DNA from: Candidatus Omnitrophota bacterium
Lineage (GTDB): Bacteria; Hinthialibacterota; Hinthialibacteria; Hinthialibacterales; JAKPRU01
Direction of reading: 5' to 3'
Assembly: GCA_029570205.1 (NCBI GenBank)
Contig: JAKQSI010000096.1
Coordinates: 62,001-126,000 of the forward strand
DNA length: 64,000 nucleotides
The stretch's first letter is position 1, and each line of letters starts with the position of its first letter. The translations under genes and the position numbers were made by a program. The notes beneath the pieces were generated by a model. That model did not search any database. It was not told the origin of the DNA and saw nothing but the letters and a program-made list of their open reading frames with translations. Shown here piece by piece: positions 4,947-16,366 of the stretch.

Positions 4947-7640
4947 TCAGCCGGGGAAGGGACTGCCCGGTTGCAGCAAGAATACCTCGATCCGGTCGAT
5001 CCATACCGTTGTCTGCGCCGCGCCACCTGCAACCTGGATGAATGGACTGACCAGTTCTCCCGAATCGGGTTTGAACAGGACCAGGATATCACGCTCCTGA
5101 TTAACATAAGCCGTTGTGGTGATGAAGTTGCTGTAGCCGAGTGAGAAATCCATATCCTGCCCGGTGAACAGATCGCCTTTCAAGGCTCCGATGAATACTT
5201 GTGCAGACGGTCCGCTACTGCGTATTTTTGCGCGCACCAGGGCATGATGACCATTTGTTGAAACCGCCGTCTGAGTGAGGAGGAACGTCACCTCGCCCGG
5301 ATCCACGGTGATTGCCAATCCCCGGTTGTCTTGCGAAGAGGTGAATTGACCGGCGGTAAAACTCACAACGGCGGTACTTCCCGGAGTTGCGCTACTGAAT
5401 CCGCCCGGTATTTCTGCCCATCCGTTCTCTGCCAGGGTGGGAAGATGAAACTCCGAAACCGCGATGGGCTGCGGCCCGCTGCCCGGTGTGGACGTAGCGG
5501 TTAGGGATGGCGGTCGTGTCGGAGTGAAGGTCGGGGTTGGTGTTACGGTTGGTGTTACGGTTGGTGTTGCGGTCGGAGTTCGGGTTGGTGTTCGGGTCGG
5601 TGTGGAGGTGGGTAAAGCGACATTTCCGACTGCAAAGGTCAGACTTTTTGTGTCATTACTTGGATTTTCATCGCCGGAGATTGAGAGGCGCCATTCGACC
5701 GTGTGGAAGCCGGGCGTACTGGCGCTCCATCTCCCGCCGGTTTTCCAGGTCCACCAGGTATTCAGCTCAATCGGCCCGTTGTTGTATGACCGGCTGTACA
5801 GGTTTCCATCGACATAGCATTCCCAGCTGTAATCCGGAATCACCTCATAGCCGACATTCTTGATGACCCCCTTGAACCGGATTCCCTGGCCCGGCGCGGG
5901 ATTGGTTACAACAAGGCTGTCGTTTGCGGCATCCAGCAGGGACACCTCGGTTACCGCGCCATCGAAATTATATTTCACGGCAATCGGGGTTGGATTGGTG
6001 TTGCGGGGGGGCAAGGTCGGTTTCGGTGTCGGTGTGAAAGTCGGGAGACTGGACGGTTGGCCATCGGTGAATTCCACGTTCAATACATAGTCTTTGGAAA
6101 CCTGGAATCCGTCGGTGGTCGAATGCACGATCCCAATCCAATGCCAGCCTGTTTCCGTGGGTGTGAACGTGATGGAAGGGAACTCCGAAACATCGCTCTC
6201 CCTGTACTGTCCTGACGAATCGTACAGTTGGATCATTACATCTCCATTGTAGTACACTCCTGTATTGCTGATCGACCAGAAGTTTCCGTAAAAGATGGAG
6301 CCGATGGACACCCGGACCTCAATCTGTCGGCCCAGATCGGACTTCGCCACATAGAAGGCATACCAATCTTCGGTATCCTGATAGTCCTCTTCACGGTACG
6401 TGGTGTAGGAGGAAAGCGCTCCCAGGACCGGTTTGCCGATTTCCATAATGAACGGTTCGTTAATGGAATCGTTCAGTTCCGCTTCCTGTGTGAGGATTTC
6501 CTGCGCAAGGGGAGATTTTTCCCTGTATTCCCGGATGGCCGTATCGAGCAGCTGTTGTGCCCCGTTGAGATTGAACACGCCATAATAGTGGGCCAGGTAG
6601 GCTTTCACATTGGGCGGCAGGTCTCCGTACACATGGTTGGAAGGAGCATCGTAGGTCATAAACGTATTGTTCAGTCCTCTGCTCCAGCCGGAGCTGAATT
6701 GTCCTTCCCCGTTGACTGTCCAGGCAATGGCGTCCGGTGGCGGGTTCCCGACTTCCGGCCAGGCCAGCCAGTCCACAAGGTAACTGTCCGTGGCCCCCTC
6801 TTCGTTGTTTGTCAGCGCATCGAACGGATGCATCAGACCGACCAGGTGGCCCACCTCATGCAGCACGGTCTTGCTGAACGGAGAACCGTATAGAGTCTGC
6901 TCACCTCGCTGAAAGGCGAACACATCGATCGGAAAAACACAGACAAAAGGATTCCCCGGCGGATATCGGTAAGCCGCAAGAGGCGCACCGTTTTCCAGCA
7001 GACCCAAAGAAGGCACGAAACGGTCATACGAGCTGCGAAAGTGCAGGATCGCATCATCCACACCGAATGCGCCGAAATAGGTCCCCATCCCGACATATCC
7101 CTGCACATCCTCCGAATCGGTCGCCAGCGCTGTGATGTGTTGGCTGCCGTCGCTGACCTCTTTAAACTCAAGACCCACATAGGCCAGGGAGCGGTTGTAG
7201 ATTTCCATACATTTACGGAGTTCGTTCTTTAATGCCTCAATTTCAGCCTGAGAATATCCGCTATCTGTAGCGAAGCGCCGGAAGTCGATGGCGTATCGGC
7301 ATTCCCGAAGCCCGTCGCCATCGGAGTCTGTCCGATTAGAGAGAATGTGATAATACCTGCTGGGCCACTGATAGGCATCCATGGGGCGGTGCATTGTGGC
7401 CTCGTTGGTCGCGGCAACAGGAGCGGTTATCGCCGCCTGCGGACTGCCGCCGAGCAGGTTTTTCTTTTCTCGGAGGTAGTCCGCCACGCTGCCTTTGTAG
7501 CTGTCGGCGTGAATCACGAGGCCGGGATGGGCAGAGACCGGAACACACAGACTTAAAGCGGCAAACACCGAGAGGACAACAAAACCGCACAGCCGGACAG
7601 TATGACCTTCCTTTTTTTTCAGTCGGATTGAACCTGTCAT
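4947..7640 (-). CDS. Secreted metzincin-like zinc metalloprotease with Pro-Thr linkers
   Basis: A predicted 897-residue exported protease. The ATG at 7640 is preferred: it follows AAGAAAGGA at good spacing and gives a clean signal peptide (FVVLSVFAALSLCVPVSA); the frame also opens 16 codons upstream. The catalytic zinc motif HEVGHLVGLMH begins at about residue 261, followed by a Met-turn candidate in NTFMTYD, which together indicate the metzincin clan (matrixin/M10-like). C-terminal to it are a pre-peptidase-like beta domain, a first Thr-Pro linker, a CARDB-like beta domain (about residues 545-670), a long (PT)n linker (about 672-708) and a terminal beta domain. The substrate is unknown. The linkers resemble those joining domains in secreted hydrolases. 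Confidence 0.85.
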   Translation of the reverse strand: MTGSIRLKKKEGHTVRLCGFVVLSVFAALSLCVPVSAHPGLVIHADSYKGSVADYLREKKNLLGGSPQAAITAPVAATNEATMHRPMDAYQWPSRYYHILSNRTDSDGDGLRECRYAIDFRRFATDSGYSQAEIEALKNELRKCMEIYNRSLAYVGLEFKEVSDGSQHITALATDSEDVQGYVGMGTYFGAFGVDDAILHFRSSYDRFVPSLGLLENGAPLAAYRYPPGNPFVCVFPIDVFAFQRGEQTLYGSPFSKTVLHEVGHLVGLMHPFDALTNNEEGATDSYLVDWLAWPEVGNPPPDAIAWTVNGEGQFSSGWSRGLNNTFMTYDAPSNHVYGDLPPNVKAYLAHYYGVFNLNGAQQLLDTAIREYREKSPLAQEILTQEAELNDSINEPFIMEIGKPVLGALSSYTTYREEDYQDTEDWYAFYVAKSDLGRQIEVRVSIGSIFYGNFWSISNTGVYYNGDVMIQLYDSSGQYRESDVSEFPSITFTPTETGWHWIGIVHSTTDGFQVSKDYVLNVEFTDGQPSSLPTFTPTPKPTLPPRNTNPTPIAVKYNFDGAVTEVSLLDAANDSLVVTNPAPGQGIRFKGVIKNVGYEVIPDYSWECYVDGNLYSRSYNNGPIELNTWWTWKTGGRWSASTPGFHTVEWRLSISGDENPSNDTKSLTFAVGNVALPTSTPTRTPTRTPTATPTVTPTVTPTPTFTPTRPPSLTATSTPGSGPQPIAVSEFHLPTLAENGWAEIPGGFSSATPGSTAVVSFTAGQFTSSQDNRGLAITVDPGEVTFLLTQTAVSTNGHHALVRAKIRSSGPSAQVFIGALKGDLFTGQDMDFSLGYSNFITTTAYVNQERDILVLFKPDSGELVSPFIQVAGGAAQTTVWIDRIEVFLLQPGSPFPG
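5515..5625 (-). repeat. Low-complexity tandem repeat encoding the Pro-Thr linker
   Basis: On the + strand this reads as repeated GGTTGGTGTTACGGTT-type units; on the coding strand it gives PTxTPTRTP-type repeats. It is protein-coding microsatellite DNA inside the protease gene and may vary in length by slippage. Confidence 0.75.
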
Positions 7641-7800
7641 GAACGTATCCTTTCTTTGGGGGCCTTCCGGTCCGATCATCGCGGGCATTATAGAATCCTG
7701 TACTCAAACTTGCCATTATTATTCCACAGACCGGTAGTGTATTGGGCCTGTAAGGGTATAGAATTGCAGGCAAGACAGTCTATGAGACGGAGGACACGCA
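7641..7800. other. Divergent intergenic region between protease and DUF4432 genes
   Basis: This 160-base gap should carry promoters for both flanking genes. A TATAGAAT-like -10 box is visible near 7757 on the + strand, but no well-spaced -35 box accompanies it. Confidence 0.3.
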
Positions 7801-11215: not shown

Positions 11216-12280
11216 ATGGAAACGACCTTTATGCCGGAAAAGCAGGCGATTCGCGATCGGATTCGTGAACAAAGGCGGAATCTGGCTCCGTCTGTGCTTG
11301 CCTATAAGAGCCGGTGTATCACTCGGCAGGCGCTCGAACTGATCCGCCGGACAGGCGCCCAGAACATCGCGGCCTTTGCAAGCCTCCCAGGGGAACCGGA
11401 CACGACGGAACTGATCCATGAAATCCTTCAGATGAATTGCACCCTCTGCCTTGCACGCGTGGAGGGCAAGAATCTCACGTTCTACACGGTTTCCGATCCC
11501 GAAAAGCAACTTCGGGCGGTCCCGCCATACAACATCAGGGAACCCATTCCAGATCGTTGCCAAGTCGCGAATCTTCAGTCCATGGATTTAATTTTCACTC
11601 CTGGTCTGGCGTTCGATATCGAGGGGAACCGGCTGGGACAAGGGGCAGGATTTTATGATCGGTTCTTCTTGTCATTTCCCGCGCCCCTTCCGATGCGGGT
11701 CGGGCTGGGCTTTGAATTTCAGATGCACCGCACGATCCCGCATCGGGAATCCGATGTGGCGATTGATGGGGTCATCACGGAGGAGCGGTTCTTTCGTCCC
11801 CGTCATAGCGCCATCATCACCCATTCGCCCGACGAGACGCGTCGACTGGGAGAGCAGCTGGCAAATCGGCTGGCTCCGAATACCATCCTGGGATTACGGG
11901 GACCGCTGGGCTGCGGAAAGACTGTTCTTGTCCAGGGATTGGCAAGAGGATTCGGCGTTGCGGAAAACATCGTGAGTCAGACTTTCACCCTGGCGAAGGA
12001 ATATCGAACCTCAAAAGGCGCGCTTTGGCATGTGGACCTATACCGTTTGACCAACGAATCGGAGATTGACATGGGATTCTGGTCGGAGATTCTCGAAGGG
12101 CCGGGAGTCAAAGCGATTGAGTGGAGCGAACGGTTGGGAGATCGTCTGCCGCTGGATGCCATCATTGCAGAAGCCGCCGTTACAGGCGAGAATCGCCGTA
12201 CATGGTCATTGGCGACTTTCCTGAACAGCCAGCGGGATCTGCACGATTTTTTGCGTGGTTTCGGACACATCGAAAGTTGA
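11216..12280 (+). CDS. 5-formyltetrahydrofolate cyclo-ligase fused to TsaE (t6A synthesis ATPase)
   Basis: One 354-residue frame joins two enzymes. Residues 1 to about 195 are a 5-formyl-THF cyclo-ligase (converts 5-formyl-THF to methenyl-THF with ATP), shown by the basic N-terminal helix (KQAIRDRIREQRRNL) and the family motif RLGQGAGFYDRFF at 139-151. Residues from about 198 are TsaE: P-loop GPLGCGKT (229-236), SQTFTLAKEY where the family has SPTFTLVxEY, WHVDLYRL and IEWSER. TsaE is the ATPase that supports TsaB/TsaD in making threonylcarbamoyl-adenosine on tRNA. tsaB follows 12 bases downstream. The second ATG (11231) could be the real start. Both halves keep their key motifs. Confidence 0.9.
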   Translation: METTFMPEKQAIRDRIREQRRNLAPSVLAYKSRCITRQALELIRRTGAQNIAAFASLPGEPDTTELIHEILQMNCTLCLARVEGKNLTFYTVSDPEKQLRAVPPYNIREPIPDRCQVANLQSMDLIFTPGLAFDIEGNRLGQGAGFYDRFFLSFPAPLPMRVGLGFEFQMHRTIPHRESDVAIDGVITEERFFRPRHSAIITHSPDETRRLGEQLANRLAPNTILGLRGPLGCGKTVLVQGLARGFGVAENIVSQTFTLAKEYRTSKGALWHVDLYRLTNESEIDMGFWSEILEGPGVKAIEWSERLGDRLPLDAIIAEAAVTGENRRTWSLATFLNSQRDLHDFLRGFGHIES

Positions 12281-12292
12281 AGGAGACATGGG

Positions 12293-13000
12293 GTGCTCGT
12301 TCTGGGTGTTGACACGTCAACGAAATTTGTTGCCGCCGGATTGTGGGGTGATGAGGGATTCCTTGGAGAGATCTGCGGGGCCGGGCATCTTCTCAACAGC
12401 GAACGTCTTCTTCCACTGATAATGACTTTGTTGGAATCATCGGGGCGGCACTTGGAAGATCTGACCGGGATTGGCGCAGTGGTCGGGCCGGGCGCATTTA
12501 CCGGCCTGCGAGTCGGGATCGGGACAGTGCAGGGATTGGCCGAAAGCAGGCGCCTGCCGGTGGTGGGGTTGTGTTCCCTGGAGGTTCTGGCGTTCGGGTG
12601 CGGCGCTGCAGGACAGACGGTTTGCCCGTTGATTTATGCGCGAAAGGGGTATGTTTATGCGGCGTTGTATGAAGCAAACGCGCAGGGATTACGGGAGTTG
12701 CAGTCTCCCGCAACGTGTCAGCCGGAAGAAATCGTTCCCTGGATCACAAAGCCGGTCTTGTTTGTCGGAAGCGGTTTTGGGGGGCATCGGGAGTTCTATC
12801 GCGAGGTCCTCAAGGAGAGAGTTCTGGAACCGCCTGAATCTGTTTTGCATCCTTCCCTGGGTCGAAGCGCCGCCTATCTCGCTTATCGGGCGCTGTTGGA
12901 GGGAAAAGGGCACGATCCCGCTCTTCTTCTACCGGAATATCTTGGTGCATCCACAGCGGAGATCAACTGGAAGAAACGGCACAGGGAACCGACTTCTTGA
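12293..13000 (+). CDS. tsaB: tRNA threonylcarbamoyladenosine biosynthesis protein TsaB
   Basis: TsaB is the non-catalytic ASKHA-fold partner that activates TsaD in t6A37 synthesis. The 235-residue protein starts with GVDTSTKFVAAGLW and has the hallmark GPGAFTGLRVGIGTVQGLA. The GTG start is 6 bases after AGGAG, which itself overlaps the end of the upstream fusion gene, so the two are translated from one transcript. The C terminus keeps the ...PEYLGASTAEINW segment seen in the family. tsaD is not in the window. Confidence 0.93.
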   Translation: MLVLGVDTSTKFVAAGLWGDEGFLGEICGAGHLLNSERLLPLIMTLLESSGRHLEDLTGIGAVVGPGAFTGLRVGIGTVQGLAESRRLPVVGLCSLEVLAFGCGAAGQTVCPLIYARKGYVYAALYEANAQGLRELQSPATCQPEEIVPWITKPVLFVGSGFGGHREFYREVLKERVLEPPESVLHPSLGRSAAYLAYRALLEGKGHDPALLLPEYLGASTAEINWKKRHREPTS

Positions 13001-14482
13001 CTACTCAAGATCGTCATGATGAATTCGCTCCAGAAGGCGAGGTCCCCGACATTCTTCATCGAGGGGTTGGATTTCAATGTGGTCGTCTTGCAGAACGAAT
13101 TCGCAAGTGGAAACCGGTTCATCGACCCGGTAAATAAATCGGCCCATTCGAATTTCGGTTCCCGGCCATACGGTCCCGACACACCGCACCGCATGGCCTG
13201 TGCGGATCAAGCCACGGATCTTGGTCTCCAGTTCCACCACCTGGCGACGAATGAGTTCCGCCTGCCCGCGCATTCCCCATTCTGTCCGAACAGCCGTCAT
13301 CAGCATCATCTCCTTGTCGGGAGGAAGAGAGCCTTGATTGGCTTTCAGTTCTTTCAAGGTAAGCGAAAGGGACCGGGCTTTTCGGAGTTGGCTGTCTTTG
13401 TCACTGAGATCAACCTTTAATTCTGCGAGATATTCGTTGAGACGATTCAGTTCCTCGCCCACAATGAGGATGGTGCCCACCTCGTTTTTCGAGCCGATTT
13501 CGTCCGCCCAGATTTCATGTTCCGCACGGGTTGTTCCTCCAAGAATCCGACCGTTTTCACCAAAGAGGTGGATGGACTGACCGGCTGCCAAATCCGATTG
13601 AACAGCGGCTCCTGCCAGGAAAATTGTATGACCGGCCTGGATTTCACTGTAATGAACAGATCGAGCGAGAACACACCCCCTTGCTTCGATTCTTCCACGT
13701 TTGGCTCCCTCCATGCTTCCTCCGATAACTACACATCCATCGGAAAAAATTGAGGCGGCCTCCACAGATTCGCCGACAATCACATCGCCTTTTGCTCGGA
13801 TGACCGTATCGGAGCGTACTGTCCCCAGGATGGCCACGGTTCCGTCCGCAACGAAATCGTTTCCATTTGGAACAACATCGCCGTTGTGCAATTTGACTCC
13901 TACAACCCGATAGACATCGCCATCATAGGAAACCACTCCATCCCGCTCGGCGAGCAGTTCCCGTTTGTCTTGGGAAAGCATGGTTCCTGCTCCGGGAAAC
14001 AACTCTTCCTGGCAGGGAGATTTCCAGGGGATAGGTTTTCCCAGGACATCCTTTCCGTCTTCGCCATCGGTTCCGAGGATTTCGCGGGCGATAGGGTTAT
14101 CTCGTGTGATAGTGAGAGCGCGAACAAATTCATGCACAAACCGGCTGGAATCCCGGCATTTCAGCAGGGACTTATAGATATCCTGATAGACATAGAGATG
14201 CTTGATTTTTCTCGGCTTACCTTCGATGATCGGGGTTCCTTGGGCGATGACGACTGCTTCATCGAAGCGGTTGTCCCGAAAGATCGCGTGAACGGCCGTT
14301 GGGAGGATTCCATGTGTGATACCGTGACGATTGAGAAACTGAAGCAGACGTTCCACATTCCAGCGGTCGGCGAATTTGTGCCGGATCCATACCGTGGCTG
14401 AGAGGGCGTCTTTTGAGACGCTGAGTGTAATTCCACCTTCTTTCAGTGAGCCACCGGCCTCCAGCGTGGACTGTTCGGTCAT
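13001..14482 (-). CDS. DUF342 / FapA-like polymer-forming protein
   Basis: A 493-residue cytoplasmic protein with the FapA/DUF342 layout. The N-terminal domain runs to about residue 200 (ending PKRELLAERDGVV-type sequence). A central parallel beta-helix of Gly-rich turns follows, with repeats such as GDVIVGESVEAASIFSDGCVVIGG, and then a charged coiled-coil segment (LIVGEELNRLNEYLAELKVDLSDKD). Members in several phyla are linked to flagella, pili or envelope assembly, but no biochemical role is secure. AGGAGG precedes the ATG at 14482. It converges on tsaB with no gap between the stop codons. Confidence 0.8.
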   Translation of the reverse strand: MTEQSTLEAGGSLKEGGITLSVSKDALSATVWIRHKFADRWNVERLLQFLNRHGITHGILPTAVHAIFRDNRFDEAVVIAQGTPIIEGKPRKIKHLYVYQDIYKSLLKCRDSSRFVHEFVRALTITRDNPIAREILGTDGEDGKDVLGKPIPWKSPCQEELFPGAGTMLSQDKRELLAERDGVVSYDGDVYRVVGVKLHNGDVVPNGNDFVADGTVAILGTVRSDTVIRAKGDVIVGESVEAASIFSDGCVVIGGSMEGAKRGRIEARGCVLARSVHYSEIQAGHTIFLAGAAVQSDLAAGQSIHLFGENGRILGGTTRAEHEIWADEIGSKNEVGTILIVGEELNRLNEYLAELKVDLSDKDSQLRKARSLSLTLKELKANQGSLPPDKEMMLMTAVRTEWGMRGQAELIRRQVVELETKIRGLIRTGHAVRCVGTVWPGTEIRMGRFIYRVDEPVSTCEFVLQDDHIEIQPLDEECRGPRLLERIHHDDLE

Positions 14483-15572: not shown

Positions 15573-16235
15573 TCACGTTTTCACCAGCCCCAGTACCTTC
15601 TGAACCAGATCCTCAATTCCCTTTGCCACATCCTTGATTGACGGGCCGAGCATATAGGCGGGCGTGGTTACAAGATTCCTTTGCGAATCCACGACAGCCT
15701 TATCCACCGGGCATTCCCGGTGAACAGCGCCCATGGATTCCAGGGCGTTGGCTGTTTGCCGGTCGGTCCCGATGGTGATAGTGGGGTTCTTTGCGCCCAG
15801 GACCGCCGCGAGAACGGCCGGAGCGATACAGATTGCACCGATGGGTTTGTGGACCTCCGCCATTTCGGAGACCAGTCGGCGAACCTCCGGCTGGACGCGG
15901 CATCCGGGGCCATCCACCGCAAATGTGCAGAGATTCTTTGCCGCGCCGAATCCGCCGGGGATAATCAGCGCATCCAGATCCCCGACTTTCACTTTGGCAA
16001 CATCCAGGATGTTCCCACGCGCGATCCGCGCAGATTCCACCAGGACATTTCGGGATTGTCCTTTCATCTCCTCATTTGTGAAATGATTGACCACGTGCAT
16101 TTGATCCATGTTGGGAGCCATGCAGACAATCTCGGCCCCGGCCCGGTCCAGGGCCAGGAGTGTCAATACGGCCTCATGTATCTCCGACCCGTCAAAAACG
16201 CCGCATCCGGATAGTAGTACGCCAACTCGAACCAT
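15573..16235 (-). CDS. elbB: ElbB-type DJ-1/PfpI-family glyoxalase-like protein
   Basis: A 220-residue protein matching ElbB (isoprenoid biosynthesis protein with amidotransferase-like domain). Features are VGVLLSGCGVFDGSEIHEAV at the N terminus, DALIIPGGFGAAKNL, and the nucleophile elbow PIGAICIAPAVLAAVLG with its catalytic-type Cys. The E. coli homologue has glyoxalase activity in vitro; the physiological role is unclear. AGGAGG lies 6 bases before the ATG at 16235, which excludes the 24-codon extension upstream. It converges with the membrane-protein gene. Confidence 0.9.
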   Translation of the reverse strand: MVRVGVLLSGCGVFDGSEIHEAVLTLLALDRAGAEIVCMAPNMDQMHVVNHFTNEEMKGQSRNVLVESARIARGNILDVAKVKVGDLDALIIPGGFGAAKNLCTFAVDGPGCRVQPEVRRLVSEMAEVHKPIGAICIAPAVLAAVLGAKNPTITIGTDRQTANALESMGAVHRECPVDKAVVDSQRNLVTTPAYMLGPSIKDVAKGIEDLVQKVLGLVKT

Positions 16236-16366
16236 GGTTATCCTCCTGCTCTGTTGTCTTTTGTTCAACTTACTCATGTTCTTCGCCCCATTCCAGATGA
16301 GGGCCATCGGCAGGCAGGGACACCTGCTCTACTGAAGTGGTGGGACAGACCTCTGTACCCCCTATG

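Follow-up and report, generated by a model that had tools for sequence, protein, structure and literature searches.

In-frame fusions of t6A proteins to other enzymes are known, among them TsaE-phosphotransferase and TsaB-RimI. The protein described here is likewise an in-frame union of two housekeeping functions, one of them a t6A protein, but the partner is a folate enzyme, and our survey found this combination in a single phylum only. The partner, 5-formyltetrahydrofolate cyclo-ligase (5-FCL, also MTHFS; fau, ygfA or yqgN; PF01812, TIGR02727), usually stands alone as a protein of about 190 amino acids. It recycles 5-formyl-THF, which serine hydroxymethyltransferase forms as a by-product and which inhibits folate enzymes (PMC9426524). 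TsaE (YjeE, YdiB; PF02367, TIGR00150) is a P-loop ATPase of weak activity that is stimulated by TsaD-TsaB and binds at the TsaD-TsaB interface; while bound it excludes tRNA, and it resets TsaD for further turnover (PMC9654439).

A single gene encodes both enzymes in the window, by which we mean the whole 64,000-nucleotide stretch analysed, from a draft genome (131 contigs, 93% complete) of a Candidatus Omnitrophota bacterium. The features of the locus are as follows.

11216-12280, + strand: 5-FCL-TsaE fusion gene, ATG start, 354 amino acids, no internal stops
11240-11782, + strand: 5-formyltetrahydrofolate cyclo-ligase domain (amino acids 9-189; PF01812/TIGR02727), with the motif PGLAFDIEGNRLGQGAGFYDR
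11783-11821, + strand: linker (amino acids 190-202), equal in length in 12 fusions, modelled as a strand at 192-202
11822-12181, + strand: TsaE domain (amino acids 203-322; PF02367/TIGR00150), with Walker A GPLGCGKT, SQTFTL, HVDLYR and EW
12293-13000, + strand: tsaB, GTG start, 235 amino acids (TIGR03725, 136.6 bits against a cut-off of 69.3)

The first-pass annotation had described one uninterrupted frame that carries a cyclo-ligase motif and the TsaE P-loop, with tsaB 12 bases downstream, and its coordinates and both domain identities proved correct: RLGQGAGFYDRFF and GPLGCGKT lie in one common reading frame, the fusion stop codon occupies 12278-12280, and the tsaB GTG stands at 12293. Both domains scored far above their cut-offs. 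For 5-FCL, the PF01812 match (E 1.7e-34, 119.8 bits against 27) spans profile positions 1-186, which is the whole domain, and TIGR02727 gave 145 bits against a curated cut-off of 84.9; for TsaE, PF02367 gave 107.6 bits against 26.6 (E 5.5e-31) and TIGR00150 gave 96.1 bits against a curated cut-off of 60.1. By sequence comparison, the front half of the protein matches the solved structures 1sou, 3hxt and 2jcb, and the back half matches 5np9, 5mvr and 6nak. Two in-frame ATGs, at 11216 and 11231, are candidate start codons, the earliest invariant residue being K9. Relative to the known families, a TsaE domain has thus been added at the C-terminal end of 5-FCL or, seen from the other side, a 5-FCL domain at the N terminus of TsaE, in which the SPTF motif reads SQTF in the window's genus.

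Profile searches of the host genome found PF01812 and PF02367 once each, both within the fusion; a separate stand-alone copy of either enzyme was rejected on the same evidence. The tsaD gene is located on a different contig (C120), and two frames with a Sua5/YrdC domain were found, one of 267 amino acids, the size of TsaC, and one of 851 amino acids. With tsaB, tsaD and a TsaC-type gene found, the t6A set of the host is therefore complete, and its only TsaE is the fusion. The second Sua5/YrdC domain (G000:C46:35068-35589), in the 851-amino acid open frame, possibly belongs to HypF.

The fusion was present as one open frame in 12 of the 14 genomes searched from the phylum (10 genera, four families), which genome search placement showed to be small and to consist of one class. 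Identity to the window protein is 94% and 85% within the genus and drops to 30-38% outside it, which indicates that the fusion is older than the split between families; what the first-pass annotation had seen in one genome is thus shared by close relatives and, to about 30% identity, across the phylum. The same unbroken frame occurs in the independent assemblies JAKPRU010000321.1 (94% identity) and JAKPYU010000296.1 (85% identity), both deposited as Candidatus Omnitrophota MAGs. The OLB16 lineage, which was earlier misclassified as Omnitrophica (PMC10066038), is Ca. Hinthialibacterota, whose genomes measure 3.39-7.54 Mb (PMC11382960). Genome sizes in the present group, 4.1-6.9 Mb, fit this range, and the phylum is probably Ca. 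Hinthialibacterota.

Each genome of the phylum holds one 5-FCL and one TsaE above the cut-off, in one frame, with the exception of G010 and G011; the only further TsaE match in the phylum (G013:C567, 21 bits) falls below the cut-off. In G011 the 5-FCL half is intact and the TsaE half is broken by apparent frameshifts over three frames (L017/L072, G011:C34, about 347500-348580). In the other frames the TsaE motifs still follow one another in order (GKTEWTRGF, SPSYALLNVY, HIDLY, VVEWAD), and the genome has no other TsaE. Judged from these remnants, the break looks like a few indels, either sequencing errors or a recent break that made a pseudogene, rather than a different architecture. In G010 neither domain was found, yet tsaB and tsaD were detected, as expected if one gene were missing from this 92% complete assembly.

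Both halves carry the residues typical of their families. The 5-FCL half has the ATP/folate-site motif (PG.AFD, R.G.G.G.YD) with its key residues invariant in the 12 members, where K9, R13, E60, P129-G130, F133-D134, R139, G141, G143, G145 and D148 are unchanged. The TsaE half has the Walker A G.LG.GKT, S-x-T-[FY], H-x-D-x-[YF]-R and EW motifs, and T208, L231-G232, G234-K235-T236, S254, H272, D274, R277 and E302-W303 are invariant in the same set. Among three congeners, dN/dS was 0.15-0.19 for 5-FCL and 0.04-0.18 for TsaE, values that point to purifying selection on both halves. A degenerate or decoy half was considered and rejected, as the motifs are invariant and dN/dS is <0.2 in both domains.

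A confident AlphaFold2 model built from a 12-row alignment (pLDDT 87.8, pTM 0.86) consists of two complete known folds. The front half has the MTHFS fold (Foldseek to 2jcb_A, E 1.5e-15, TM 0.83 to target; TM about 0.8 for 2jcb, 3hy6 and 1sou) and the back half resembles TsaE structures over the full ATPase domain (6n9a_E, TM 0.86 to target; 5np9, TM 0.88 to target). Residues 187-208 are constant in length in 12/12 members and variable in sequence. In the model, residues 192-202 form a beta strand that joins without a break onto the start of TsaE, so the connection between the domains is short and probably not floppy; the high pTM might reflect domains held in a fixed, functional arrangement.

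As in the tsaE-tsaB neighbourhood of many bacteria, tsaB adjoins the fusion gene in 9/14 genomes (G000-G003, G005-G008 and G011); it lies apart in G004, G012 and G013, and the fragmented G009 yielded no clear tsaB. In the window, an AAGGAG that resembles a ribosome-binding site upstream of tsaB overlaps the fusion stop codon, so the two genes may be translationally coupled. The gene beyond tsaB, for a FapA-type protein (PF03961, PF20250; window 13001-14482, - strand), is convergent with it, and the fusion and tsaB therefore form a two-gene unit here. Elsewhere, a rimI-like acetyltransferase gene follows tsaB (G003, G005), and in families f2, f4 and apparently f5 the fusion is preceded by a gene whose TPR_21-like product has a membrane-like segment at its N terminus (L073:3957-4649, L070:6080-6835, L071:4119-4856); in the window no such gene precedes the fusion. 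The recurrence of these neighbours makes an ancestral order TPR protein - fau-tsaE - tsaB - rimI likely, of which the window lineage has likely kept only the fusion and tsaB. 6S RNA is often encoded upstream of fau; within the window, the region upstream of the fusion included, 6S RNA was sought and no Rfam match was found. A promoter and terminator scan near the fusion gene gave hits at roughly chance level. Other genes of the window include one for an ElbB-type DJ-1/PfpI protein (15573-16307, - strand; NF008747, 337 bits) and a 913-amino acid frame with no Pfam match (4947-7688, - strand).

We consider it quite probable that the gene encodes a bifunctional housekeeping protein that arose once, by in-frame fusion of a fau/ygfA-type 5-FCL gene to tsaE, in the ancestor shared by the whole phylum. 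The N-terminal half would convert 5-formyl-THF and ATP to 5,10-methenyl-THF, clearing an inhibitory folate by-product, and the C-terminal half would be the TsaE ATPase, which resets TsaD-TsaB before each new round of t6A synthesis. The two halves most likely work side by side, each with its own chemistry and with no catalytic coupling. The link would fix their co-expression, and in most lineages tsaB would be coupled to them as the downstream gene. The joining of two housekeeping genes is the likeliest explanation, ahead of a new mechanism, and of the benefits that had been proposed at first, simple co-regulation fits best, co-expression being the likeliest gain. Gene fissions are generally rare. 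Retention of the fusion wherever the two domains occur, even where tsaB has moved (G004, G012 and G013), somewhat exceeds what neutral joining needs, and its persistence at about 30% identity, with or without a nearby tsaB, leaves some scope for selection on a physical link.

The other proposed benefit, that one-carbon supply or ATP sensing is coupled to tRNA modification, finds no support beyond the fusion: the catalytic motifs of both halves are ordinary, an additional sensor domain is absent, and the linker is short and of variable sequence. A regulatory fusion would be one in which folate/ATP occupancy of 5-FCL gates TsaE, or TsaE/TsaBD gates 5-FCL, so that t6A output is tied to one-carbon status. 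All 12 intact copies stay fused in four families, the linker keeps its length and the model has a high pTM, which speaks for this; we nevertheless regard it as unlikely, since both halves resemble ordinary free-standing enzymes, the linker sequence is not conserved, and common ATP use is the only established metabolic link between the two reactions. That the fusion acts phylum-wide as a coupling device, with the folate/ATP state of 5-FCL controlling the TsaE-driven t6A reset or the reverse, is distinctly unlikely; if true, it would link one-carbon metabolism to translation fidelity across the whole phylum.

The position of tsaB as the next gene in most of the genomes would fit a mainly structural 5-FCL half, one that serves TsaE as a scaffold or stabiliser within the TsaB-TsaD complex and whose own catalysis is secondary, but the invariant 5-FCL motifs, in what is the sole 5-FCL copy of every genome that has one, make this very improbable. 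The short linker of variable sequence might instead be cut after translation to release separate 5-FCL and TsaE; we give this equally little credence, as the model shows the linker as a beta strand that runs into the start of TsaE and the 12 members have no cleavage motif in common. A chimeric assembly or frame error, which the draft state of the genome and the frame breaks in G011 might suggest, is refuted by the same frame in 12 genomes, 10 genera and independent assemblies, which excludes a false join or frameshift between the domains and leaves this reading a negligible probability.

On present evidence both enzymes look ordinary and their pathways are unchanged. The fusion joins two near-universal enzymes phylum-wide and is usable as a lineage marker; it also gives the correct annotation for a gene otherwise named after one half only, and, as a natural construct, could be used to ask whether the two enzymes ever communicate.

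When a profile of the fusion was compared with 386 genomes, a spread sample with about 370 from outside the phylum out of the tens of thousands that exist, two-domain matches occurred in the phylum only and all others covered one half; given this sampling, rare fusions could exist beyond the phylum. The fusion was not found in six genomes of the outside phylum whose 5-FCL is the most similar, nor in 394 genomes around G065, a weak negative as these are mostly one lineage. A literature search, with most subscription journals outside its reach, found no published description of a 5-FCL-TsaE fusion, in agreement with the earlier statement that none was known. The fusion apparently combines two well-known enzymes in an undescribed way; within the phylum it is old and has stayed stable, and it may already be visible in domain-architecture databases. 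Outside the phylum, the genes tsaE-tsaB-rimI-tsaD form a run in G065 (C1:1136000-1149500), and a separate 5-FCL gene lies ca. 7.4 kb downstream of them on that strand, past a gene for an ABC-F-type ATPase; this is a single example of loose proximity as separate genes. Matches to 5-FCL also occur in open frames of 619, 649 and 585 amino acids (G359:C73, G230:C32 and G360:C8, respectively), perhaps other 5-FCL fusions, and a 524-amino acid frame (L025:1423-2997, - strand) has TsaE at amino acids 372-492, preceded by 370 residues that match no Pfam family.
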